Assembly (NCBI GenBank): GCA_958295745.1 | Contig: OY282370.1 | Coordinates: 806,001-870,000, forward strand | DNA from: an uncultured Acidimicrobiia bacterium | GTDB taxonomy: Bacteria; Actinomycetota; Acidimicrobiia; Spongiisociales; Spongiisociaceae | Reading direction: 5' to 3' | Length of the DNA stretch: 64,000 bases | In this document: one piece after another, positions 52,056 through 64,000 of the stretch | Numbering within the stretch: position 1 is the stretch's first letter | How the letters are laid out: the number at the start of each line of letters is the position of its first letter | The notes under the pieces: model-generated | What the model saw: only the letters and a program-made list of their open reading frames with translations | Databases searched by the model: none | What the model was told of the DNA's origin: nothing | Translations under genes and position numbers: made by a program

Positions 52056-52232
52056 CGTCCTCAGGTTACACCCCGCCCGCGGCCAAGATATGCCTCCCCC
52101 CTAACCGTGAATAGCCTGCCCCGCATGGAAGAGGGCAATCCAGGAGCTCCGAGACGGAGGAGACGCCGCCGGACCGCGTACAGGCAGGCGAGCCCTCGGT
52201 CGTGACCCGATCCGGCCCCTCCGGTTATGGTA

Positions 52233-52258
52233 TCCTTACTTATGATCGAAAGTAAGGA
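52233..52258. promoter_or_regulatory. palindromic operator of the AbrB-VapC pair
   Basis: A perfect 8-bp inverted repeat, TCCTTACT (52233-52240) and AGTAAGGA (52251-52258) with a 10-bp spacer, lies directly before the antitoxin start and includes the AAGGAG ribosome site. This is the usual layout of an autoregulatory toxin-antitoxin operator. Confidence 0.65.
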
Positions 52259-52265
52259 GCCTCGG

Positions 52266-52589
52266 ATGGATTCCGTCGTAAAGGCCTCGCCGAAGGGCCA
52301 AGTCACCGTTCATAAACGGTCAGATGACGCGCGAAGCGGCGCCCGGCTGATAGCAAAGGTCACGTCGAAGGGCCAGGTCACCATACCCAAGGCCATCCGA
52401 AGCGAGCTCGGCATCACCGAAGGCGACACTGTCATGTTCCGGCTCGAAGAGCAACACGCGGTGATGACTCGCATCCCCGACCTCATGGAACTGGCCGGCT
52501 CGGTCGAAGTGCCGGAGGACAAACGGGGCCGGTCCTGGGACGAAATACGCAGCATCGTCCGCCAGGAACGCGCCAAGGCCCGGCATTGA
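52266..52589 (+). CDS. AbrB/MazE-type antitoxin with doubled N-terminal motif
   Basis: The 107-aa product carries the SpoVT-AbrB swapped-hairpin motif AKVTSKGQVTIPKAIRSELGI at about 33-53. A partial earlier copy, VKASPKGQVTVHK, lies at about 5-17, apparently an internal duplication. The C-terminus (DEIRSIVRQERAKARH) would bind the toxin. AAGGAG 6 nt before selects the ATG at 52266 over upstream ATGs inside the operator. The stop overlaps the toxin's TTG start (TTGA). Confidence 0.82.
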   Translation: MDSVVKASPKGQVTVHKRSDDARSGARLIAKVTSKGQVTIPKAIRSELGITEGDTVMFRLEEQHAVMTRIPDLMELAGSVEVPEDKRGRSWDEIRSIVRQERAKARH

Positions 52590-52978
52590 CGGCGTACGTC
52601 GACACCAACGTCCTCATCCGCCACCTCACCGGCGACACTCCGGACCTGGCGGTTCGCGCCGGAGCCTTCATCGACGAAGCGGACGATCTGCTGCTTCCGG
52701 ATCTCATCGTGGCCGAAACCGTGTACGTCCTCGAGTCCTACTACGGGATCAGCCGCGACGAAGCGGCCGAGGTTGTGCGCTCGGTGATCTCATACCGATC
52801 GATCCGCACATCGGACACCGCTCTGCTTATGAAATCGCTCGACATCTATCAAGACCATCGGATCGACTTCGCCGAGGCCTACCTGGCGGCGGCCGCCGAA
52901 TCCACCGGGGTAGGCACCGTCGCGTCCTTCGACCGCGCCTTAGACCGCGTGCCTACGATCACCCGATTCGAACCGTAA
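52586..52978 (+). CDS. vapC: PIN-domain toxin VapC
   Basis: The 130-aa ribonuclease-type toxin has all PIN acidic residues: YVDTNVLIRHL (Asp 6), IVAETVYVLES (Glu), IDFAEAYLAA (Asp) and SFDRALDRV (Asp). VapC toxins cleave RNA, often tRNA or rRNA, and are held inactive by the upstream antitoxin. Translation is coupled through a 4-nt TTGA overlap. It is convergent with the AAA_14/DUF4143 gene at the edge of the defence-like region. Confidence 0.9.
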   Translation: MTAYVDTNVLIRHLTGDTPDLAVRAGAFIDEADDLLLPDLIVAETVYVLESYYGISRDEAAEVVRSVISYRSIRTSDTALLMKSLDIYQDHRIDFAEAYLAAAAESTGVGTVASFDRALDRVPTITRFEP

Positions 52979-53011: not shown

Positions 53012-54241
53012 CTATGCCCAAAGCGTGCTGATCGGCGCGGCGATGATCCGGTCGGCGAGCCGGAAAGGCCAAGTTCCGGTGTGCAGCACCACCCCGCCTA
53101 CGAACATCTTGCCCAGCCGGTCGCGCAGCCAGATCAGATGCTTGGCGTCGCCGCGATTGGGGGCGGCCGTTGCCTTTATCTCGATGCCAATCACCCGCCG
53201 GGCGTCCAGCTCGATCACCAAATCGACCTCGCGTCGTCCGTCGCTCAACCGCAGATGGTGAAGAACTGCTCTGCCTCGGACCGCCGGCGCCTCGGCCCGT
53301 ATCTGACCTACGACGAACGTCTCCAAGACCTGGCCCAGCAGGCCGCCGTTGCCGAGCACCCCCTCCGAGTCAGCCCCCAGCGCGGCAGTCAGCAAACCCG
53401 GATCGGTGAGATACCGCTTGGGCGATCTGGCCAGGCGCTTCAACCGGTTCGTAGTCCAGGCAGGAATCTCATCGGCGATCATCAGGTTCTGCAGATGGTG
53501 CCGATACGCCTCGCCGGTTCGAGGGTTGATACGGGCCGAGTCGTTGATCTTCTGATCGGTGACGATCCCGGCGGAGGCGGCGGCGTACACATCGAAGAAG
53601 CGGCGGAAAAGGGCCGGATTGCGCGCACCCAACACGTCCCTGGCCATGATCCCGTCGATGTATCCCCGCAACCAAGGCCGACGCTCGGTCTCCGGCACGG
53701 ACAGGGCCACCTCGGGAAACCCGCCCTTGACCGCCAGGGCCGCGTAATCCCGAATGTCGAGGCGGCCGGGGGCCGGTTCCAGATCGTCGCCGTCGACGAT
53801 CCGCTCGATCAGCGGTTTTGTGTTTGTTCCCCTCTGCTCGGCGACCGTGAGGGGCCACATCTCCAGGTTCACCACCCGTCCCATGCCGGGCCAGCCGCCG
53901 GCGGGCGTATCAAGCGTCGTGTTCAGCGATCCGGCGAGGATGAACCGTCCGGGCCGGAAGTCGCGGTCGACCGCCCGCTTCACCGCCCCCAACACCTCCG
54001 GGACCTCCTGCCACTCATCCAGCAGGATGGGTTCGGGAAGGTTGCGGTCGAGCGCCGCATCCGGGTCGGCCCGGAACACCGCCGCATCCACCGCCCGGTC
54101 AAGCCGCACCACCGTCCGGGCGCGCCTAGCGGCGGTCGTGGTCTTGCCTGTTGCCCTGGGCCCGACCAGCATGACCGCAGGCAACCCCGACAATCGTTGC
54201 ACTAGGACGGGATCGACCAGACGCTCTCTGTACTCAGCCAT
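53012..54241 (-). CDS. AAA_14 / DUF4143 ATPase
   Basis: The 409-aa protein has a P-loop VMLVGPRATGKTTTAARRA at about 24-42, Walker B PILLDEWQEVPEV, sensor ILAGSLN, and a C-terminal DUF4143 domain with a PD-(D/E)xK-like core (REVDLVIELDARRVIGIEIKAT: Asp, Glu-x-Lys). The role of this common family is unclear; it may be regulatory or nuclease-like. The ATG at 54241 is preferred to the TTG one codon earlier. It reads away from the repeat block and the DUF499 operon, and may be an accessory of the island. Confidence 0.85.
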   Translation of the reverse strand: MAEYRERLVDPVLVQRLSGLPAVMLVGPRATGKTTTAARRARTVVRLDRAVDAAVFRADPDAALDRNLPEPILLDEWQEVPEVLGAVKRAVDRDFRPGRFILAGSLNTTLDTPAGGWPGMGRVVNLEMWPLTVAEQRGTNTKPLIERIVDGDDLEPAPGRLDIRDYAALAVKGGFPEVALSVPETERRPWLRGYIDGIMARDVLGARNPALFRRFFDVYAAASAGIVTDQKINDSARINPRTGEAYRHHLQNLMIADEIPAWTTNRLKRLARSPKRYLTDPGLLTAALGADSEGVLGNGGLLGQVLETFVVGQIRAEAPAVRGRAVLHHLRLSDGRREVDLVIELDARRVIGIEIKATAAPNRGDAKHLIWLRDRLGKMFVGGVVLHTGTWPFRLADRIIAAPISTLWA

Positions 54242-54251
54242 CAAAACCAGA

Positions 54252-54443
54252 ATACAACAATTTCATTCTATTCGATACAACTTTTTCACTGCATTCAATA
54301 CAAGATTTTCACATCATCAAGTACAAGCATCGCGCTCGATTCAAATCGACCAGACGCTCCCATCAAAACTAGAATACAACTTTTTCACTGCATTCAATAC
54401 AAGATTTTCACATCATCAAGTACAAGCATCGCGCTCGATTCAA
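54252..54443. repeat. AT-rich 23-bp-period repeats (iteron-like) between divergent genes
   Basis: The motif (A/G)TACAA(C/G) recurs at 54252, 54275, 54298 and 54321, exactly 23 bp apart, most units continuing with TTTCA and ATTC. After a 29-bp spacer, three units repeat at 54374, 54397 and 54420. Units 2-4 (54275-54344) equal 54374-54443 over 70 bp, and the flanking ATCGACCAGACGCTC (54211 and 54345) is duplicated too. In the direction of the AAA_14 gene the units read TTGTAT...; the block is its promoter/operator region. Local G+C is far below that of the surroundings. Confidence 0.85.
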
Positions 54444-54557: not shown

Positions 54558-57500
54558 ATGGGCGGTATCCTCAACAGCTGTGCTCCGCGGTCCGATGTTC
54601 TGAGCGGCGGGCTTACCGATAAGCACTTCGCCGCCCAGCTCGATCAGGTGGTCGCCAACGCCGCGGGCTACGAGAGCTACGCCGACGCCGATCGGTTCTT
54701 CGATCTGACCTACCCGACCCAGGGTCTGCGCGACCTGCTGAGCGGCACCTTCGGGCGGCTCTTGCACCGACACCCCCCCCCCCGCCGATAATTTAAGAAC
54801 TTCAGCAGCCGAACACGCTGTTTATCGTTACGAAACGAGCTTCGGAGGCGGCAAGACCCACGGGCTGATCGCCCTCTGGCATCTGGCCCGCGGAGCCCGC
54901 CCCGCCAACCTGGCCGAGTTCGTCGACCCGGCCCTGCTCCCCGAAACCTGTCAGACCGCGGCCGTGGTTGGCGACTGCCTCGACCCAATCAACGGGCTGA
55001 CCAGCGGCGGCATCACCACCTACACCCTGTGGGGCGAGATCGCCCGCCAGCTCGGCGCCGAAGCCTGGGGTCTAATGCAGCAGAGCGACGCCGCCCGCAC
55101 CGGCCCGGGCAAGCAGGTCTGGCTGGACATCTTCGGCGCCGCCCCCACCGTGATCATCATCGACGAGCTCGCCCAGTACCTGCGCCGCCTCAGCGCCGCC
55201 GGCAGGGCGCCTGTACGGAACCTGGCCGAGGCCACCATCGACTGCCTCAAGGTGCTGTTCGAAGCCGCCACCGCCGCGCCCGCGGTGCGCATCGTCTTCA
55301 CCCTGGCCACAGGCGTCGCCGCCTTCCAGCGGGAAACCAACCAGATGCAGGACGCCTTGAACGAGGTGGCCGAGCAAAAGATCCTGGCCGAGGCCCGGGA
55401 TGTCATGGAGCGGCCCAAGGGGGCGGTCGGGCGGCCCGCCGACGACCACGAGATCGGCTTCATCCTGCGCCGCCGGCTGTTCTCCCATGTGGACGACGAC
55501 GCAGCGTCCGACGCCTTCGCCGCCTACAAGGACCTCTACTCGGAGATGGCCGACAGGGGCGTACAGGTCGGCCCGGCCACCATCGACCCGGCGGGCTACT
55601 GCGACCGTATCCGCACCTCTTATCCGTTCCATCCGGCGCTGATCGACTGCCTCGACAAGCGCATCGGCCCCCTGCCCGGCTTCCAGCGGGCCCGCGGCGC
55701 GCTCAAGATGCTGGCCGAGGCTGTGCGCAAGATATGGACCGAGCGCGCCGAGCTCCCCATCATCAACCTGGGTGATCTGCCCCTCGAAGCCGAAGCGGTG
55801 CGGGCCTCGGTCACCAGCTCCATCGGCCGCGAAGCGCTGGACGGCCCCGCGCAGGCCGACTTCGCCGGTCCCAACTCCCATGCGGCCGGGGTCGACGCCG
55901 AGCGTTGGCCCAACGAGAAGGCGGCCGCCCGCGCCTGCCGCGCCGTGTTCTGCCACAGCGTCGCCGGTGAACCCGCGCCGGGCGCCGCCCTGCCCGACAT
56001 CCATCTCGGCGTGCTGCGGCCCGGCGAGAACCCCGAAACCGTCGACGAAGCCTTGGCGGTCACCAGCCGGGTGGCCTGGCACCTGGTGTCGGACGGCGCT
56101 CGGTGGCGGTTCCAGGTCGAGCCCAACGCCAACCGCATCATCGCAACCGAAACCGCCAACGTCTCCCAAGCCGACGTAACCGAGGAGCTGAGCAGGATCA
56201 TCGAACGGCTCTTCGCCGGCGACGGGCCCGTCAAGGCCGTCCACCGCCCGACCGGCCCCGCCGACGTGCCCGACGAACCCCGGCTGCGCCTAGCCGTCAT
56301 GGACTGGACCGACACCACCACCACGGCCCGAGAAGCAGCCGCCCCGCCGAAGTCGGTGGGCGAGATCGCCGACTGGGCGGGGGTGTCCGAAGCCAACCGC
56401 ACCTATCGGAACGCGGTCATGGCCCTGGTGGCCGACGCAGACGAATTGGAGAGGATGCGGGAGCGGGTCCGGTTCGAGCTGGCCGCCCGCCGGATCAAGG
56501 GCGACCACAAGCGGCTCGAACAGTTCGGCAAGGAGGTCCGCCAGAAGCTCAAGGAGCTGGCCGACCAAGCAAGCCTGGAGACCCGGATAGCGGTATGCCG
56601 CGCCTACCGGCACCTCTACTGGCCGACCCGCGACCCCGCCAACCACAACCTGCGGCACTTCGAGCTTCCGCCCGGCCAGCAAGGCAAAACGCCCAAGGGC
56701 GCCCAGACCAAGGTTCTGCTGGAAACGCTGCGGCGGAGCGGCAAGATATCCGACTCCGCTCCGGCCACCGACCGGCTGGCCCTCGCCGCCGGCTTCTCCC
56801 GCAGCGGCGAGATGACCACCGCCGACCTGTCCAAGGTCCCCTGGCGCGACCCCGGCCAAGCCATTCTTCTCAATCCGGGCCTGATCAGGGAAACCATCTC
56901 GGCGGGGATAAGCAACGGCGCCTGGGTCTACTACGACGCACGGAAGGAAAAGGCCTACGGCGCCGACCGGACGCCGCCCGCGGTGCGCATCGACAGCGAC
57001 GCCTGGCTCTACAGCCAGGAGAAGGCGCGCCGCCGCGGCCTGCTGCGCCGACCGGTCACGCTCGACCTGATCACCCAGGCCGTCGACCGGCAAGGGGAAG
57101 GCGGGGCGATCACCGGGCCGGCCCTGCGGTCGAGGCTGGAGGAGGCCGTCGGCGGGGAGCCGACCAAAAAGGAGGTGCTGGAGACGCTGGCCGCAGGCCA
57201 CCACGCCTCCGACCCCGTAATCGTTATAGATGCCACCGCCGCCGAACCCGGGGTTTTGACATCCGGCGCCATAAAGCGGGCCCGGCTCGACGACCTCGAG
57301 GTACTCACCGCCGCCGCGGCGGCCGACCGGGGCATAGCGGCCCCCGAGCGCGACCCGGCCCCGAAGGTTGAGGGACGGGGCGGGGTCGGCATGGCCTTCC
57401 AGCAGATCGCCGACCGCATCGCCGACCTCGGCGTAGACACCATCACGAGCATCACGATCAGGACCGGCATCGACCCCGGCGCCGGAACCTGGAACCTGCG

Positions 57501-57825
57501 GCTGCTGGGCCTCTGCATCCCCCAACTTCCGAAGTTCGCCTGTCGGGTGTCGGTGTCGGCCACCGCCGAGTACCGGGGGCTGACGGGCGGCCTGAAGGCA
57601 AGGCTGATGGGCGACGCCCGCTCCTACCAGCAGATAGAGGCCGCCTTGCTGGATCTGGCCGATTCGGGCAGCAAGACGGCGGGCCACCTGAGCATCGAGC
57701 TGACCCCGGCCGCTCCGATCCGCCACGGCGGCCGGCGGTGGATGGAGCTGCACCAGGTAGTCAGGACCAACAATCCGGGCCGGATCAGCATCACCGTCCG
57801 GCTGGCCAGGCCCGGCGGAGAGTGA
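54558..57825 (+). CDS. DUF499-type P-loop ATPase, frame broken at an 11-C tract
   Basis: Two frames together make one DUF499 (COG1483-like) ATPase of about 1088 aa. The first, from ATG 54558, encodes CAPRSDVLSGGLTDKHFAAQ and FFDLTYPTQGLRDLLSGTFG and stops at 54791. The second, one base out of phase, begins at the C-run and continues with VYRYETSFGGGKTHGLIAL (Walker A about 93-100), VIIIDELAQYLRR (Walker B about 200) and TLATG. Joining needs one C fewer. TATTTT ends 6 nt before the ATG, so the mRNA may be leaderless. The gene heads an operon with a methyltransferase and a helicase. As written, the ATPase would be OFF. Confidence 0.85.
54773..54783 (+). other. 11-C homopolymer tract (possible phase-variation switch)
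   Basis: Eleven consecutive C residues lie in the ATPase coding sequence between the N-terminal domain and Walker A. With 10 (or 13) C the frame reads through as LLHRHPPP-ADNLRTSAAEHA into the P-loop; with 11 it stops eight codons later. No similar tract was noticed elsewhere in the window. Confidence 0.85.
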
Positions 57826-57834
57826 GGCCGACCG

Positions 57835-58266
57835 GTGGCCGTTCCCGGGGTGGCCGAGCGGAGGTTCGTCATGCGGCTCCACCCCACACCGGCCGCTGAC
57901 GACTGGGGTTTCACGCTGAGCGAGATGATCGGGACGGAGTCCGCAACGGTGGCGGCGCTGCCCGCACATCAGGCCTGGCGCCACCGGCGGGCGGTGATCG
58001 AGGCGGTGAAGGCGGACGGTTACCCGGCGACCGCGGTCAGCCCGCGCCGCCGCCGGCCCTTCAACCTGACCCAGGAACCGGGCGTCCGCCTAGCCCTGGC
58101 GGTGCGGGCCGCGGCCCCGGTACGCAAGGCCGACCGCCGGATGGCCATCACCGAAGGGCTGCGGACCATGGGCACCGAAGAGGCCCTCTACTGGTACGCC
58201 CAAGTGAGCGGTACCGGCGGCGGGCGCGCCCTGCGGGCTCTACGGCTGTTGCTGGCGGCGGAATGA
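57835..58266 (+). CDS. small protein between ATPase and methyltransferase
   Basis: The 143-aa basic protein starts with GTG 9 bp after the ATPase stop and overlaps the methyltransferase start by 4 nt (ATGA). It has an N-terminal strand-rich part (RRFVMRLHPTPAADDWGFTL) and an Arg-rich C-terminal half (SPRRRRPFNLTQEPGVRLAL, then GRALRALRLLLAAE). No catalytic motif is seen. Homologous islands contain a small protein at this place, so it is likely a structural or DNA-contacting subunit. Family not named with confidence. Confidence 0.65.
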   Translation: MAVPGVAERRFVMRLHPTPAADDWGFTLSEMIGTESATVAALPAHQAWRHRRAVIEAVKADGYPATAVSPRRRRPFNLTQEPGVRLALAVRAAAPVRKADRRMAITEGLRTMGTEEALYWYAQVSGTGGGRALRALRLLLAAE

Positions 58267-61211
58267 ACCGGACGAATCCCGCTCAGAGCGACCCGGCAAC
58301 CCGGCCGCGGCTGTTCATCGAGGAGGGCTTCCCCGTAACGGAGCTGAGCATCGAATCGGTACGCGAGAGGGGCGCTCCTTCGGCGTTGCCGCCCATCTAC
58401 TTTCTCCATGTCTGGTGGGCAAGACGGCCTTTGGTGGCCAGCGCGGGCGCCATCCTGGGTAGCCTGCTACCGGCCTGGAATCAGAAGCTAGCCGACCGAT
58501 TCCCAGACTGCCCCGAGCTGGCCACGAACAATAACTATCGAGCGTGGTTCCTGAAGCTATGCGGCATCTGGGGCGATCCGGTCGCGGCCCGGAAGTTGAT
58601 CGAAGCGGCTATTGAATCGGGGATACGAATCCCGAACCCATATACGTACAAACAGGCCTTCAAGAACATCCCCACTCCGGACAACCTGAGCCTGTTGCGT
58701 GAAGTGTTGGAAGACACCTGGGGGCGGATCCCCTCCGTGTCGGACCCGACCGCTGGCGGCGGATCGATCCCCTTCGAGGCGTTGCGCTACGGCTTGACGG
58801 CCCACGCCAATGACTTGAACCCGATCGCGGTCGGCGTGCTGAGAGCCGGTGTGGAGCTGCCCGTCCGTTACAGAACGGATCTGAACACCGAATTGGAGCA
58901 CTGGGGACATCTACTGGTGGATCGGCTCAACACTCGTCTGACCCCTTTCTTCGAACCTCACGATGACCAGACGAGCGTGGCCGCCACATTCATCTTTGCC
59001 CGGACGGTGGCCTGCCCGCGTACCGGCAAGACCGTGCCCTTGGTCGGCGACTGGTCACTACGCCGGGGCAACGATCCGGTGGCGGTGCGCCTAGTCACCC
59101 ACCGCGACGGTGTCGAGCTCGACGAACCCGAGTACCGGATCGTCGAAGGTTCGGGCATCGGCTTCAACTCCAAGAAAACGGCCACCTACTCATATGGTAA
59201 AGGAATTTCACCCTGGGATCAGCTGGTGATCGACGGCGATTACATCCGGGCCGAGGCCCAAGCGGGGCGGATGGGTGAGGTGCTCTACGCGGTGGCCATC
59301 CGTACCCCGCAGGGCCGAGGCTTTCGGGCCCCCACCGAGACCGACCGGGCCGCCCTAGCTGCCGCCGAGGCCGAGCTGGAGCGGTTGTTGCCCCAGTGGG
59401 AACGGGAAGATGTGTTGCCGACCGAGTATTTTCCCGATGGAAATGACCGGCGTCCTATCCAGTACGGGATGCCTCTCTGGAGGGACCTGTTCACCCCGCG
59501 GCAACTGCTGGGGCACGGTTGCTTCGTGGAGGAGTACCGCAAGCTGATCGACGAGATTCGAGACGCAGTCCCCGACCGGGACCGCGCCGACGCGGTGCTG
59601 GCCCTGCTGGTGATGATGCAGAGCAAGGCAGTCGACTACAACTCGCGTCAGGTCGGTTGGCATGTAAACCGTCAAGCGATCGCCCACGCCTTCTCTCAGC
59701 ATGCTTTTCCGTTCAAGAAGACCTTCGCCGAGTTCGAGGCCGGGCGGGAGCTATACCCATGGTGCCTCAAACAGTTGCTCACCGCCTACCGGGGCATCGC
59801 CGGACTGTTGCCCGACACCACCGACCTGCCCGACCACGAAAGCCCCGACCCTGAACGGCAAGCGCCACGGATCAAGGTCACTAGGGGCAACGCCGGACAC
59901 ATGCCCGAGATCCCATCCCGGAGCTTCGAGCTGGTGTGCATCGACCCGCCCTACTACGACAATGTGATGTACGCCGAGCTGTCCGATTACTTCTACGTAT
60001 GGGAGAAGCGCACCCTCGGACGGCTCTGGCCCGAGTTCTTCGATGACGAGCTGACCAACAAACACGACGAGGCGGTCAAGAACAAGGCCCGCTTCGCAGC
60101 TATGGGACGTCGCACCAACGAGCTTGCCCACAACGACTACCGGTTCAAGATGCAGGCCATCTTCGGTGAATGCCGCCGCATCCTGCGCGATGAGGGTGCC
60201 TTATGCGTGATGTTCACCCACAAGGCGGCCGACGCCTGGAATGGCTTGGGGGCTTCTCTTCTGGACGCCGGTTTCACCATCGAGACATCCTGGCCCATGA
60301 GCACCGAATCGCCGTCTTCGCTGCATCAGGCCAAGAAGAACGCAGCCAAATCGACCATCTTGCTGGTGTGCCGCAAGCGAACCGAGCGACACGACGAAGG
60401 CGATCGGGTCTACCTCCCCGAGATCGAGGCGGAGATCCGCGCCGCTACGGGAGAATCCCTGCATCGCGCCGCAAAACAAGGCCTGAGCGGCGTGGACCTG
60501 CTGTTGTCTACCTACGGACCGACCCTGTCGGTGTTGTCGCGGTACTGGCCGGTGTATTCCAGCGAAACGGACGAGTCGGGCCGATCCCGCCGACTGCGCC
60601 CCGAAGAGGCCCTCCACATCGCCCGAGCCGAGGTCACCCGCCGCCAGCGTATCCGTCTGGTGGGGCTTGAGGTCGACTTCGACCCCGTCAGCGACTTCGT
60701 CATCGCCGCCTGGGACACCTTCCGGGCCCGGCGGTTTCCCTTCGACGACGCCCGCCGCATGGCTCTGGCCACCGGCGGTCTCGATCTGGACGAACTGAAA
60801 CGCGCCAAGGTCATCAAGGCTCAGTCGGGCACGGTAACCCTGCTGGAACCCCATGAGCGGCTGCGCCGCGACGGGGACGAAGACCTGCCCGGCGTCAACC
60901 GCAGCCGGGCCGCATTCCCGATCTCGATCGACGCCGTGCATACCGCCCTGTACATCGTCGATCTCGACGGCCTCGGGGCAGCCAAGCGCTGGCTCGACCA
61001 ACGCGGCCTGAGCGAAGACGGGCGCTTCACGGCCTGCCTGCAGGCACTGGTGAGGGCTATCCCGCGCACCAAGACCAAGGGCGAGTGGAATATCCCCGAG
61101 GCCGAGCTACTCGACGATCTGGTAACCACCTACTTCCCCGGCATAGAGGTTCCCCCCGACCCGGACGAGGACCCCGAACAGCTGGCCTTCGGCGACTCAC
61201 CCGATGGCTGA
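58263..61211 (+). CDS. DUF1156-type DNA methyltransferase
   Basis: The 982-aa protein is of the DUF1156/COG1743 type, predicted adenine-specific DNA methylases. The N-terminal DUF1156 part has RLFIEEGFPVTELSIES and PPIYFLHVWWARRPLVAS. SAM-binding motif I is DPTAGGGSIPFEAL near 161, and the catalytic motif IV is CIDPPYYDNVMYAELSDYFY near 560. The large C-terminal region may recognise DNA. It overlaps both neighbours by a few nt, tying it to the ATPase and helicase genes. Methylation of host DNA for self-recognition or of phage DNA are both possible. Confidence 0.87.
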   Translation: MNRTNPAQSDPATRPRLFIEEGFPVTELSIESVRERGAPSALPPIYFLHVWWARRPLVASAGAILGSLLPAWNQKLADRFPDCPELATNNNYRAWFLKLCGIWGDPVAARKLIEAAIESGIRIPNPYTYKQAFKNIPTPDNLSLLREVLEDTWGRIPSVSDPTAGGGSIPFEALRYGLTAHANDLNPIAVGVLRAGVELPVRYRTDLNTELEHWGHLLVDRLNTRLTPFFEPHDDQTSVAATFIFARTVACPRTGKTVPLVGDWSLRRGNDPVAVRLVTHRDGVELDEPEYRIVEGSGIGFNSKKTATYSYGKGISPWDQLVIDGDYIRAEAQAGRMGEVLYAVAIRTPQGRGFRAPTETDRAALAAAEAELERLLPQWEREDVLPTEYFPDGNDRRPIQYGMPLWRDLFTPRQLLGHGCFVEEYRKLIDEIRDAVPDRDRADAVLALLVMMQSKAVDYNSRQVGWHVNRQAIAHAFSQHAFPFKKTFAEFEAGRELYPWCLKQLLTAYRGIAGLLPDTTDLPDHESPDPERQAPRIKVTRGNAGHMPEIPSRSFELVCIDPPYYDNVMYAELSDYFYVWEKRTLGRLWPEFFDDELTNKHDEAVKNKARFAAMGRRTNELAHNDYRFKMQAIFGECRRILRDEGALCVMFTHKAADAWNGLGASLLDAGFTIETSWPMSTESPSSLHQAKKNAAKSTILLVCRKRTERHDEGDRVYLPEIEAEIRAATGESLHRAAKQGLSGVDLLLSTYGPTLSVLSRYWPVYSSETDESGRSRRLRPEEALHIARAEVTRRQRIRLVGLEVDFDPVSDFVIAAWDTFRARRFPFDDARRMALATGGLDLDELKRAKVIKAQSGTVTLLEPHERLRRDGDEDLPGVNRSRAAFPISIDAVHTALYIVDLDGLGAAKRWLDQRGLSEDGRFTACLQALVRAIPRTKTKGEWNIPEAELLDDLVTTYFPGIEVPPDPDEDPEQLAFGDSPDG

Positions 61212-64000
61212 ACCCCCGCCGGGGTGCTTCCAGGACCTCGATCTCGCAACCCGCTACTCGGCGGGCGTCAAGGACATGCTGGCCGATTTCTACATCCCGG
61301 TGCTGTCGAGAGCGGTGCGCTACGACCGGGCGGCGGGCTACTTCGCCTCGTCGTCGTTCTTCGCGGCGGCGGCCGGGATGGCCCGGTTCATCGACAACGA
61401 AGGCCAAATCCGGCTGCTGGTCGGCGCTCAGCTCACCGAGGACGACCACCGGGCCCTGCTCGGCAAAGTCCCGCTCGACCAGATCATGGCCGAACGCCTC
61501 CGGCGGGACGAGCTGACCGCCGACGATGTGGCCTGGCGCCGCCTGCAGGTCATCGCCTGGCTGGTGCGCGAAGGTCGTCTGACGATCCGGGTCGGCCTGC
61601 CCTGCGACGACTTCACCGGGGCGCCGATCCCCCATTCCGATGAGCAGCGTCGTCTCAAGTACTTCCACATCAAGTGGGGCGTGCTCGAAGACGCCGACGG
61701 CGACCGGGTGGCCTTCGACGGCAGCATCAACGAATCCGCGTCGGGCTGGCAGGGCAACTACGAGTCTTTCAGCGCCTACAAGTCGTGGCATACCCAGGTC
61801 TGGCGGCAATACGGCCGGAAGATCGTCTACGAGTTCGAACAGCTCTGGCGCGGCGACAATGTAAGCGGCTGGCGCAGCCTGCCTCTGCCCGAGGTCGAGC
61901 AACGTCTCATCAAGCTGCTGCCCGACGAACCCGGCTGGGCACCCCCCGCCCGGGACCCGCTCGAACCCGAGCTGAGCGAGGCCGACCGGGAGGCTATCGC
62001 GGATATCCGGGCCGCCCCCCGCACCGGCACCGGCGTGGGGATGTTGTCGAGCGGGATCGAACCCTGGCCCCATCAGCTGGCCATCGCCCGGCGCATCTGC
62101 GAGAGCCGGCCCCGCAACTACCTGCTGGCCGACGAGGTGGGGCTGGGCAAGACCATCGAGGCGGGCCTCGTGCTGCGGGAGCTGTTGCTCGCGGGGGAGG
62201 TGGAGAGAGCGCTGATCCTGGCGCCGGCGTCGCTGTTGATCCAGTGGCAGGAGGAGCTGGCCGAGAAGTTCATGCTGGAGGTTCCCCGTTTGGACGGACG
62301 CAGGCTGCGTTACCCCGACGGGACGGAGCGCCGGCTGTCGTCCGGCGAGAACCGTTGGCGGGCGGCGCCGGTCCTGCTGGCGTCATCGCATCTGGCACGG
62401 ATGAGGACCAACCGCGCCGAGCTGCTCGAAGGGCCCGGCTGGGACCTGGTGTTCGTCGACGAGACCCACCACGCCCGGCGGCGGGGGTCGAAGCCCACCG
62501 ACCCGCCCAATCAGATGCTGGCGACTCTGACGGCGCTGGCCGAGGAGAACCTGTTCAAGGCCCTGCTGCTGGCATCGGCCACCCCCATGCAGCTCCACAC
62601 CCACGACCTCTGGGACCTGCTCGACCTGTTCGGCCTGCCCGACGGCTGGAACCGAAGCGCCGCGGACATGGAGCGCTACTACCGGGCGCTCCAGGAACCG
62701 TTCGGCGACCGCGACTGGCCCCGCCTGCAGACGATGCTGACCGGTTATCTGGACGCAACCGCGCCCGACCCCGCGGTCGTGGAGATGATCGAAGAAAAGG
62801 CGGGCTGGGTGGAGTCGGACCGGATCCGTGATTTCCATCTGAGCGCCGGGGGCCGGCCCCGTGGAGTCGACGCCGAGGTGAAGCAGTCCTGGGACAACTG
62901 GCTGCGGGCCAACACGCCGGTGCGCGACCGGGTGTTCCGCACCACCCGGGCGACGCTGCGGCGCTACCGGCAGACCGGGGTGCTGGACCCGGACACCGTG
63001 ATTCCGAAGCGAAGCATCGACGACCGGTTCTACAGCCTCGGCGAGGCCAAACCCCTCTACGACCGCATCGAGGAGTACATCCTGCGCTACTACGACGCCT
63101 ACCTGTCCGCGGGCGGCAAGAGCGCGCCGCTCGGCTTCATCATGACCGTCTACAGGCGGCGGCTGACCTCAAGCTTCTACGCCATCCGCAAATCACTCGA
63201 GCGGCGGCGCGCCGTCCTCGCCAGGAGGGAGCCCCTGCCCGACCTACTCGACGACGACGACCGCTACACCGCCGAGGGCCTCGACGACCTGGGGCGGGTC
63301 GAGCACCTGGGCGGCGGAGAGCTCCTCCTGGCGGGGGGCGACCTCCGGGCTGAGCTGGCCGAACTCGACGACTTCATCGGGGAGCTGACCGACCAGCCGC
63401 CCGACGAACCCAAGATGGAGGCCATGTACGACCTGCTCGACGACAACTTCGGGTCGGGCGCGCACGACACGGTGGTGATCTTCACCCAGTACCGCGACAC
63501 CCTCCACTACATCCGCCGCCAGCTGCTCAACGTCTACCGGGGATCGCTGGCCTGCTACTACGGCGGGCGGGGTGAATGTTGGGACGAGGCGGCCGAGCAA
63601 TGGACGCCGATCAGCAAGGAGGAGGTAAAGGAGCGGTTCCGGCGGGGCGAGGTGAAGATCCTGCTGGGCACCGATTCCATGTCGGAGGGTCTCAACCTGC
63701 AGACCTGCGGTTGGCTGATCAACTTCGACCTGCCTTGGAACTTCACCAGGGTGGAGCAGCGCATCGGGCGGGTGGACCGGATCGGCGGCCGGCCAATGGT
63801 GCAGGTCAGCAACTTCTTCTACGAGGGCACCGTGGAGGAGGACATATACCGGCGCATCCACGACAGCCACGACTGGTTCTCCAACGTCATCGGCAACGCC
63901 GCCCCGGTGCTGGCCGCCGCCGAGAACCTGATCTCCGACGCCGCCATGGGGCGCCGCACCACCGAACAGGCGGCCGGCGAGCTAGAAAACCTGCTCGACC
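61204..64000 (+). CDS. PLD-like domain / SNF2-type DEAD-like helicase (3' end outside window)
   Basis: From ATG 61204, overlapping the methyltransferase stop by 8 nt, the frame is open to the window end (932 residues seen). Residues 15-200 form a phospholipase-D-like domain (YFASSSFFAAAAGM, HIKWGVLE near 154 and GSINES). Then follows a superfamily 2 helicase: ADEVGLGKTIEAGL (Walker A, about 312), FVDETHH (motif II, 419), LASATPMQ (III), and VVIFTQYRD, GTDSMSEGLNLQT (V, 822), QRIGRVDRIGG (VI, 852). It resembles RapA/SNF2-like translocases fused to PLD that occur in DISARM-like and related defence islands. The stop lies beyond the window. Confidence 0.87.
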   Translation, partial: MAEPPPGCFQDLDLATRYSAGVKDMLADFYIPVLSRAVRYDRAAGYFASSSFFAAAAGMARFIDNEGQIRLLVGAQLTEDDHRALLGKVPLDQIMAERLRRDELTADDVAWRRLQVIAWLVREGRLTIRVGLPCDDFTGAPIPHSDEQRRLKYFHIKWGVLEDADGDRVAFDGSINESASGWQGNYESFSAYKSWHTQVWRQYGRKIVYEFEQLWRGDNVSGWRSLPLPEVEQRLIKLLPDEPGWAPPARDPLEPELSEADREAIADIRAAPRTGTGVGMLSSGIEPWPHQLAIARRICESRPRNYLLADEVGLGKTIEAGLVLRELLLAGEVERALILAPASLLIQWQEELAEKFMLEVPRLDGRRLRYPDGTERRLSSGENRWRAAPVLLASSHLARMRTNRAELLEGPGWDLVFVDETHHARRRGSKPTDPPNQMLATLTALAEENLFKALLLASATPMQLHTHDLWDLLDLFGLPDGWNRSAADMERYYRALQEPFGDRDWPRLQTMLTGYLDATAPDPAVVEMIEEKAGWVESDRIRDFHLSAGGRPRGVDAEVKQSWDNWLRANTPVRDRVFRTTRATLRRYRQTGVLDPDTVIPKRSIDDRFYSLGEAKPLYDRIEEYILRYYDAYLSAGGKSAPLGFIMTVYRRRLTSSFYAIRKSLERRRAVLARREPLPDLLDDDDRYTAEGLDDLGRVEHLGGGELLLAGGDLRAELAELDDFIGELTDQPPDEPKMEAMYDLLDDNFGSGAHDTVVIFTQYRDTLHYIRRQLLNVYRGSLACYYGGRGECWDEAAEQWTPISKEEVKERFRRGEVKILLGTDSMSEGLNLQTCGWLINFDLPWNFTRVEQRIGRVDRIGGRPMVQVSNFFYEGTVEEDIYRRIHDSHDWFSNVIGNAAPVLAAAENLISDAAMGRRTTEQAAGELENLLD

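Follow-up and report, generated by a model that had tools for sequence, protein, structure and literature searches.

The Pgl system of Streptomyces coelicolor (BREX type 2) carries a G-tract in pglX and switches at a frequency of 1e-2 to 1e-4 (PMC4365076). Elsewhere in the Actinobacteria, homopolymer phase variation of the pilus genes of Bifidobacterium breve has been demonstrated by maximum-depth (deep) sequencing (PMC9187656), and further homopolymer contingency loci are described from Propionibacterium acnes (PMC4746626) and from ESX-1 of M. tuberculosis (PMC11898584). Slippage also switches the Type III methyltransferases of phasevarions and other genes of phase-variable restriction-modification (RM) systems (reviewed in PMC12707154). 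The Hma and BR systems have a DUF499 ATPase, a DUF1156 methyltransferase and a SNF2 helicase in one operon (PMC8565338, PMC12839542). Homopolymer switching of DUF499 genes is unreported in the text of these two papers, and we found no report of it for Hma/DUF499 systems in the open-licence papers searched.

The operon studied here has the same combination of ATPase, methyltransferase and helicase. It lies at the end of the window, a stretch of 64,000 nucleotides (C1:806001-870000) of an Acidimicrobiia genome, G000, which comprises 3.31 Mb in 9 contigs and is 96.9% complete. Its first gene, hmaC, encodes the DUF499 ATPase and contains the tract discussed below. It is followed, also on the plus strand, by the gene for a DUF7680 protein of 143 aa (57835..58266; PF24728, 7e-22), which is common to the operons of two related genomes, G006 and G311; by hmaB (58263..61211), for which profile and motif searches gave a DUF1156 DNA adenine methyltransferase of 982 aa with intact DPTAGGGS and DPPYYD motifs; and by an hmaA-like gene of 1046 codons (61204..64000, running beyond the window end), whose profile matches are to an HKD (phospholipase D-like) domain and a SNF2 helicase, with HKD, Walker A and DETH motifs intact. 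PADLOC profiles thus recover all three Hma genes in one operon (HmaC 3e-78, HmaB 1e-70, HmaA 1e-52). PLD_Helicase (9e-64) outscores HmaA on the helicase gene, and this match, together with one to phospholipD_antiphage and an HKD-like motif (HIK...GSIN), identifies an HKD nuclease fused to a SNF2 helicase. Since the operon proteins do not attain the NCBIfam cut-offs for DUF499_antiphage and DUF1156_antiphage, we regard the system as a divergent Hma-like one.

By its gene content and in the terms of PMC12839542, we assign the operon to the DUF499-centred BREX-related systems and call it Hma-like. It resembles BR type 2 in the fusion of an HKD nuclease to the helicase, but differs in the small gene: profile searches of the operon found no DUF3780, whose standalone form is the hallmark of BR type 2 (98% of systems), and because DUF7680 (PF24728) stands in its place, we have not filed the operon under that type. 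The initial annotation had likened the locus to Streptomyces pglX. The comparison is apt for the behaviour, and both are defence operons of high-GC bacteria with a C/G homopolymer inside one gene. It does not extend to the type of system, which is Hma-like and not Pgl: the Pgl tract is in the methyltransferase PglX, whereas here it is in the ATPase, and the operon has no PglX-type methyltransferase. Among the operon genes scanned, that is, those up to and including the helicase, there was neither a PglZ nor an iSTAND protein, the two that would be expected of BR type 3. The Pgl/BREX type 2 set of PglW, PglX, PglY and PglZ was not recovered, with only weak matches of the PglXI and BrxC models to operon genes, and we rejected this identity for an operon whose genes encode DUF499, DUF7680, DUF1156 and a PLD/SNF2 helicase.

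On its other side, hmaC faces a divergent gene for an AAA/DUF4143 protein (53012-54244, minus strand; PADLOC PDC-S01, 7e-102), and between the two lie identical 70-bp AT-rich direct repeats (54275-54344 and 54374-54443, 99 bp apart), accompanied by an incomplete third copy at 54252. A MazE-like/PIN toxin-antitoxin pair (52586-52978 and 52227-52589, both on the plus strand) is encoded nearby.

The tract in hmaC is a run of 11 C on the plus strand at 54773-54783 (C1:860773-860783), found in a listing of runs and subjected to a frame test over lengths 9-13. The initial annotation described it as the point at which two halves of a DUF499 ATPase meet in different frames, and translation and profile matches bear this out at exactly this position. 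From the ATG at 54558, the N-terminal frame reads ...CAC CCC CCC CCC CGC CGA TAA, or H-PPP-R-R-stop (TAA at 54789-54791), giving an ORF of 77 codons (54558..54791). The second frame is open from the tract through to the stop at 57825 (remainder of the gene 54784..57825, 1013 open codons), matches DUF499 (PF04465) and contains the Walker A (GGGKTH) and Walker B (IIIDELAQYL) motifs. The pieces match consecutive stretches of the PADLOC HmaC profile, 11-69 (7e-10) and 76-682 (3e-78), and are therefore two parts of one gene. Both have a normal codon bias, with a third-position GC of 0.83 in the N-terminal and 0.90 in the C-terminal part. The linker from the tract to Walker A (54784..54846) is AT-rich (0.33) and corresponds, in alignments of homologues, to a loop of variable length.

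At the lengths tried, one long hmaC frame results with 10 and 13 C only; with 9, 11 or 12 C, translation ends after about 78 residues, 5' of Walker A. Since the second frame has no ATG, GTG or TTG between the tract and Walker A (YRYETSFGGGKTH), the earliest being a GTG at 54964, the ATPase cannot simply initiate 3' of the tract. It had been proposed that the tract breaks the ATPase just ahead of Walker A, which is what we find, and that 10 C would join the N-terminal domain directly to YRYETSFGGGKTH. Ten C (or 13) does restore the frame, but the join is not direct and runs via the linker PPP-ADNLRTSAAEHAV. The tract is the sole lesion seen in the operon, whose remaining ORFs are open and whose catalytic motifs are intact.

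The window included, we found six members of the HmaC clade, four of which have a C/G run of 11-14 inside hmaC. In the window, C11 sits out of frame in the loop before Walker A; the hmaC of G352 (55% identity) has G13, also out of frame, in the same loop; that of G311 (60% identity) has C14 in frame in the C-terminal region; and that of G006, which belongs to the same family, has C11 in frame in the middle of the protein. As assembled, all parts of these three relatives' genes are open apart from the frame at the tract. The other two clade members, L037 and L038, have no C/G tract (maximum run 6), and no run above 7 occurs in 29 other DUF499 ORFs, two of them from G000; the difference, 4/6 against 0/29, is significant (Fisher's test, P = 3e-4). 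Since the same loop has C or G depending on the lineage, and other positions are used elsewhere, the sequences suggest that hmaC tracts arose repeatedly. The comparison with related genomes, which the initial annotation had advised, thus shows tracts in both phases and two members without one. It had also named the pattern that would speak against a switch, homologues that lack a homopolymer and have both halves degenerate; what we see instead is that the two closest homologues and the one from the same family carry runs of 11-14 between open parts. One of the tract-free genes, from a Chloroflexi MAG with a coverage of 1.4, is out of frame 5' of Walker A (L037, near 1560) at a place without homopolymer, and this break is likely an assembly error.

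Within the window, C runs of length 5, 6 and 7 number 108, 28 and 2 and G runs 80, 24 and 3, and the only run above 7 is the C11 tract. We sampled the genome as stretches around tracts and at chosen spots. In these, the lengths of C/G runs are bimodal, with about one run at length 8 and a second mode at 11. Very few A/T runs reach a length of 8. The 3.0-Mb contig C1 has 40 C/G runs of at least 9, with lengths of 9-12 and a mode of 11. Extrapolated from the decay of the short runs, about one run of at least 11 would be expected on this contig, where 27 of the 40 listed tracts reach that length. A plain dinucleotide shuffle expects more long runs than were observed, so that the argument rests on the bimodality and not on the total count. 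Because the counts fall steeply to length 8 and then rise at 11, the C/G tracts of G000 are a distinct class of runs.

In at least seven defence or RM genes of G000, including hmaC, such a tract either splits the gene or stands at its head. A Type ISP RM gene (L063, G000:C1:250500-259500) is broken between DEAD and Helicase_C and has three more tracts at its 3' end. In a PDC-M33A gene (L062), the profile matches 3-98 ahead of the tract and 109-444 past it, and in a Type IIG gene (L066) 11-886 and 964-1087, respectively. A second Type IIG gene (L080) and a Type III methyltransferase gene (L068) are split as well; the sequence on either side of the tract aligns with one intact gene, from Paenarthrobacter for L080 and from Planktothrix for L068. 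Further, an N6/N4 methyltransferase gene (L079) has a tract after its presumed start codon, a weaker PDC-M33A-like gene (L074) one in frame at a similar place, and a DpdF-like helicase gene one about 29 nt 5' of its ATG (L069). Other tracts are near surface genes with S-layer-homology, FG-GAP, LRR or RCC1 domains (L067, L071, L077, L083, L085). In-gene placement was by open-frame analysis and profile searches; a codon-model gene caller had put nearly all 40 tracts between genes, a result that we rejected as the caller errs in AT-rich islands and on genes with weak scores. The in-gene tracts that we identified fall in defence or RM genes that are otherwise intact over hundreds of codons. Where the frame is clear, seven of eight are out of frame, slightly above the two thirds expected by random phase. 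Many tracts are intergenic and about a third lie near ordinary genes, so that some of the tracts may simply reflect mutational drift.

Two of these loci have a repetitive architecture. In the Type ISP gene, tandem degenerate C-terminal modules (...QTRxIPRRR-stop) come after a C10 break, and every module has a C10-C12 tract at its start or end, so arranged that slippage could alter the C-terminal specificity end of the enzyme; in G006, one locus (L138) has its tract in the corresponding C-terminal position. At L083 (G000:C1:2726700-2746000), tandem units of ~4.1 kb encode SLH/FG-GAP surface proteins of ~950-1160 aa, and every upstream region there contains one or two C/G tracts.

In its C/G tracts of about 8-12, located in genes and 5' of surface genes, G000 resembles the known actinobacterial contingency loci. 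It differs from them in that its in-gene tracts are in restriction and defence genes and that all tracts are on one replication strand, and it differs from known phase-variable RM systems and phasevarions in that a single environmental genome seems to have switchable systems of several classes (ISP, IIG, III, Hma-like, PDC-M33A).

Among the relatives, G006 has further in-gene tracts in Type IIG, Type ISP and Type III genes and in one adhesin-like gene, with mixed frames. Among the sampled tracts of G352, two are in genes: one, in an RM gene with a Type ISP-like helicase layout, is in frame at the same inter-domain site as the Type ISP tract of G000, and the other breaks the frame of a Type III restriction subunit gene. 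The repertoire is thus strong in G000 and G006, with fewer cases in G352 and G311. We rejected it as a family-wide rule: elsewhere in the family, in-gene C9/G9 runs look ordinary, most of them lying in housekeeping genes (NAPRTase, amidohydrolase, DnaJ) without breaking the frame, and the distribution is patchy. In four relatives from the family (G001, G008, G010, G013; e.g. G013:C27:6262-6502), C9+ and G9+ runs alternate in dense clusters of a few hundred bases, frequently at the ends of contigs.

Independent runs are present in the hmaC of the nearest relatives, and many other defence genes of G000 are split in the same way; for both reasons, C11 looks to us like a genuine switch. We consider it quite probable that the tract is a homopolymeric contingency (slippage) switch in the hmaC of a BREX-related (Hma-like) operon, and one of a repertoire. 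The earlier description of the tract as phase-variation-like gains support from the hmaC runs of the relatives and from at least six other tract-broken or tract-led defence or RM genes.

One alternative to such a switch is an error of the consensus sequence: the true tract would be fixed in frame and the gene always on, with long homopolymers miscounted in the assembly. The single 3.0-Mb contig suggests to us a long-read assembly, the tracts of G000 never exceed 12, the seven of eight in-gene tracts that are out of frame are what a systematic length error would also give, and there is a published warning that G-tract lengths in databases can be wrong (PMC9187656). Yet miscounting leaves the existence of long tracts in defence genes unexplained, as it does the bimodal length distribution, and independent hmaC tracts are found, in both phases, in three relatives from other assemblies. 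We therefore judge this explanation improbable.

The tracts of the main contig also show a strict polarity. Of the 40 (42043 to 3000504), all 22 at 42-1252 kb are C on the plus strand and all 18 at 1497-3000 kb are G, the change coinciding with the change in sign of the GC skew; dnaA is at 1385174. In 40/40 cases G is on the leading strand, regardless of gene direction. Shorter runs (lengths 5-6) have a mild strand bias of about 1.3 to 2.2 fold. The weight of the polarity depends on how this bias grows with run length, since 40/40 has P = 6e-8 under a bias of 66% but is unremarkable under one of 90% (P = 0.03, two-sided). Complete polarity holds for G000 only, as neighbouring tracts disagree in part in G352 (24 agree versus 8) and in G311 (6 versus 5). 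Searches of G000 for MutS (MutS_V, PF00488) gave no match, whereas 11 of 14 control genomes were positive, and MutS is likely absent; the genome being 96.9% complete, we do not take this as certain. A tentative wider reading, which we hold at somewhat below even chances, is that the tracts form a genome-wide repertoire in which many restriction, defence and S-layer-type genes can be switched and whose tracts occur only where the leading strand has the G, and that the replication fork decides where switches form or persist. If this fork rule were true, whether C or G is on the coding strand of a gene would be set purely by its replichore.

The lack of a MutS match also agrees with a neutral alternative, by which tracts arise anywhere without MutS and persist in dispensable defence genes with no selection for switching. 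It would account for the many intergenic tracts, some of them beside housekeeping genes, and for the in-frame C9/G9 runs in housekeeping genes of other family members. It fits poorly with the in-gene tracts identified in G000, which hit defence and RM genes otherwise open over hundreds of codons, with the recurrence of tracts in the same hmaC loop and at the same Type ISP-like inter-domain site in two families, and with the relatives that hold hmaC in frame with 11 or 14 C. We regard a purely neutral origin as distinctly improbable.

Some full-length protein might also come from the 11-C allele by programmed +1 ribosomal frameshifting or by transcriptional slippage. The frame needed is indeed +1, and CCC-C is a +1-prone context. 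But a frameshift site would not be conserved, since the tracts of homologues are elsewhere and in frame and that of G352 is G, not C; we rejected ribosomal frameshifting on this lack of conservation in position and base, and consider the explanation as a whole very improbable. That hmaC is a decaying pseudogene, inactivated by an ordinary frameshift as the defence system is being lost, agrees with its being out of frame in the assembly but is scarcely credible for a single lesion located at the tract, in an operon whose other frames are open and whose motifs and codon bias are intact.

In the contingency switch that we favour, replication slippage in the C tract would shift its length by single bases and, in a genome without MutS, would stay uncorrected. 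Lengths of 10 and 13 would correspond to the ATPase being on and lengths of 9, 11 and 12 to its being off; as only 10 and 13 give the full ATPase, the assembled state of 11 C (the length in the assembly) would be off. The in-frame protein should tolerate the tract, because the tracts sit in loops of variable length and encode a short poly-proline. Slippage at an appreciable rate would yield a mixed population of on and off cells, and restriction would be lost in the off state, with the whole system presumably switched off by the tract. With the switch placed in the ATPase gene, that of the methyltransferase stays intact. In type 1 BREX, methylation requires BrxC. The benefit of switching may lie in a lower cost of autoimmunity or of hindered gene uptake, and in bet-hedging against phages.

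Demonstrations of phase variation in defence have so far mostly concerned single systems. In G000, a BREX-related (Hma-like) system has what is probably a switch of its own, seemingly invented several times in hmaC, among many restriction genes that look switchable. The balance between immunity on the one hand and autoimmunity and gene uptake on the other thereby comes within reach of tests on long reads and methylomes that already exist. Caution is also called for with metagenome assemblies, as 'frameshifted' defence genes in them may be switches and not pseudogenes or errors. Finally, the strict strand rule, if general, would tie contingency loci to fork-dependent slippage.
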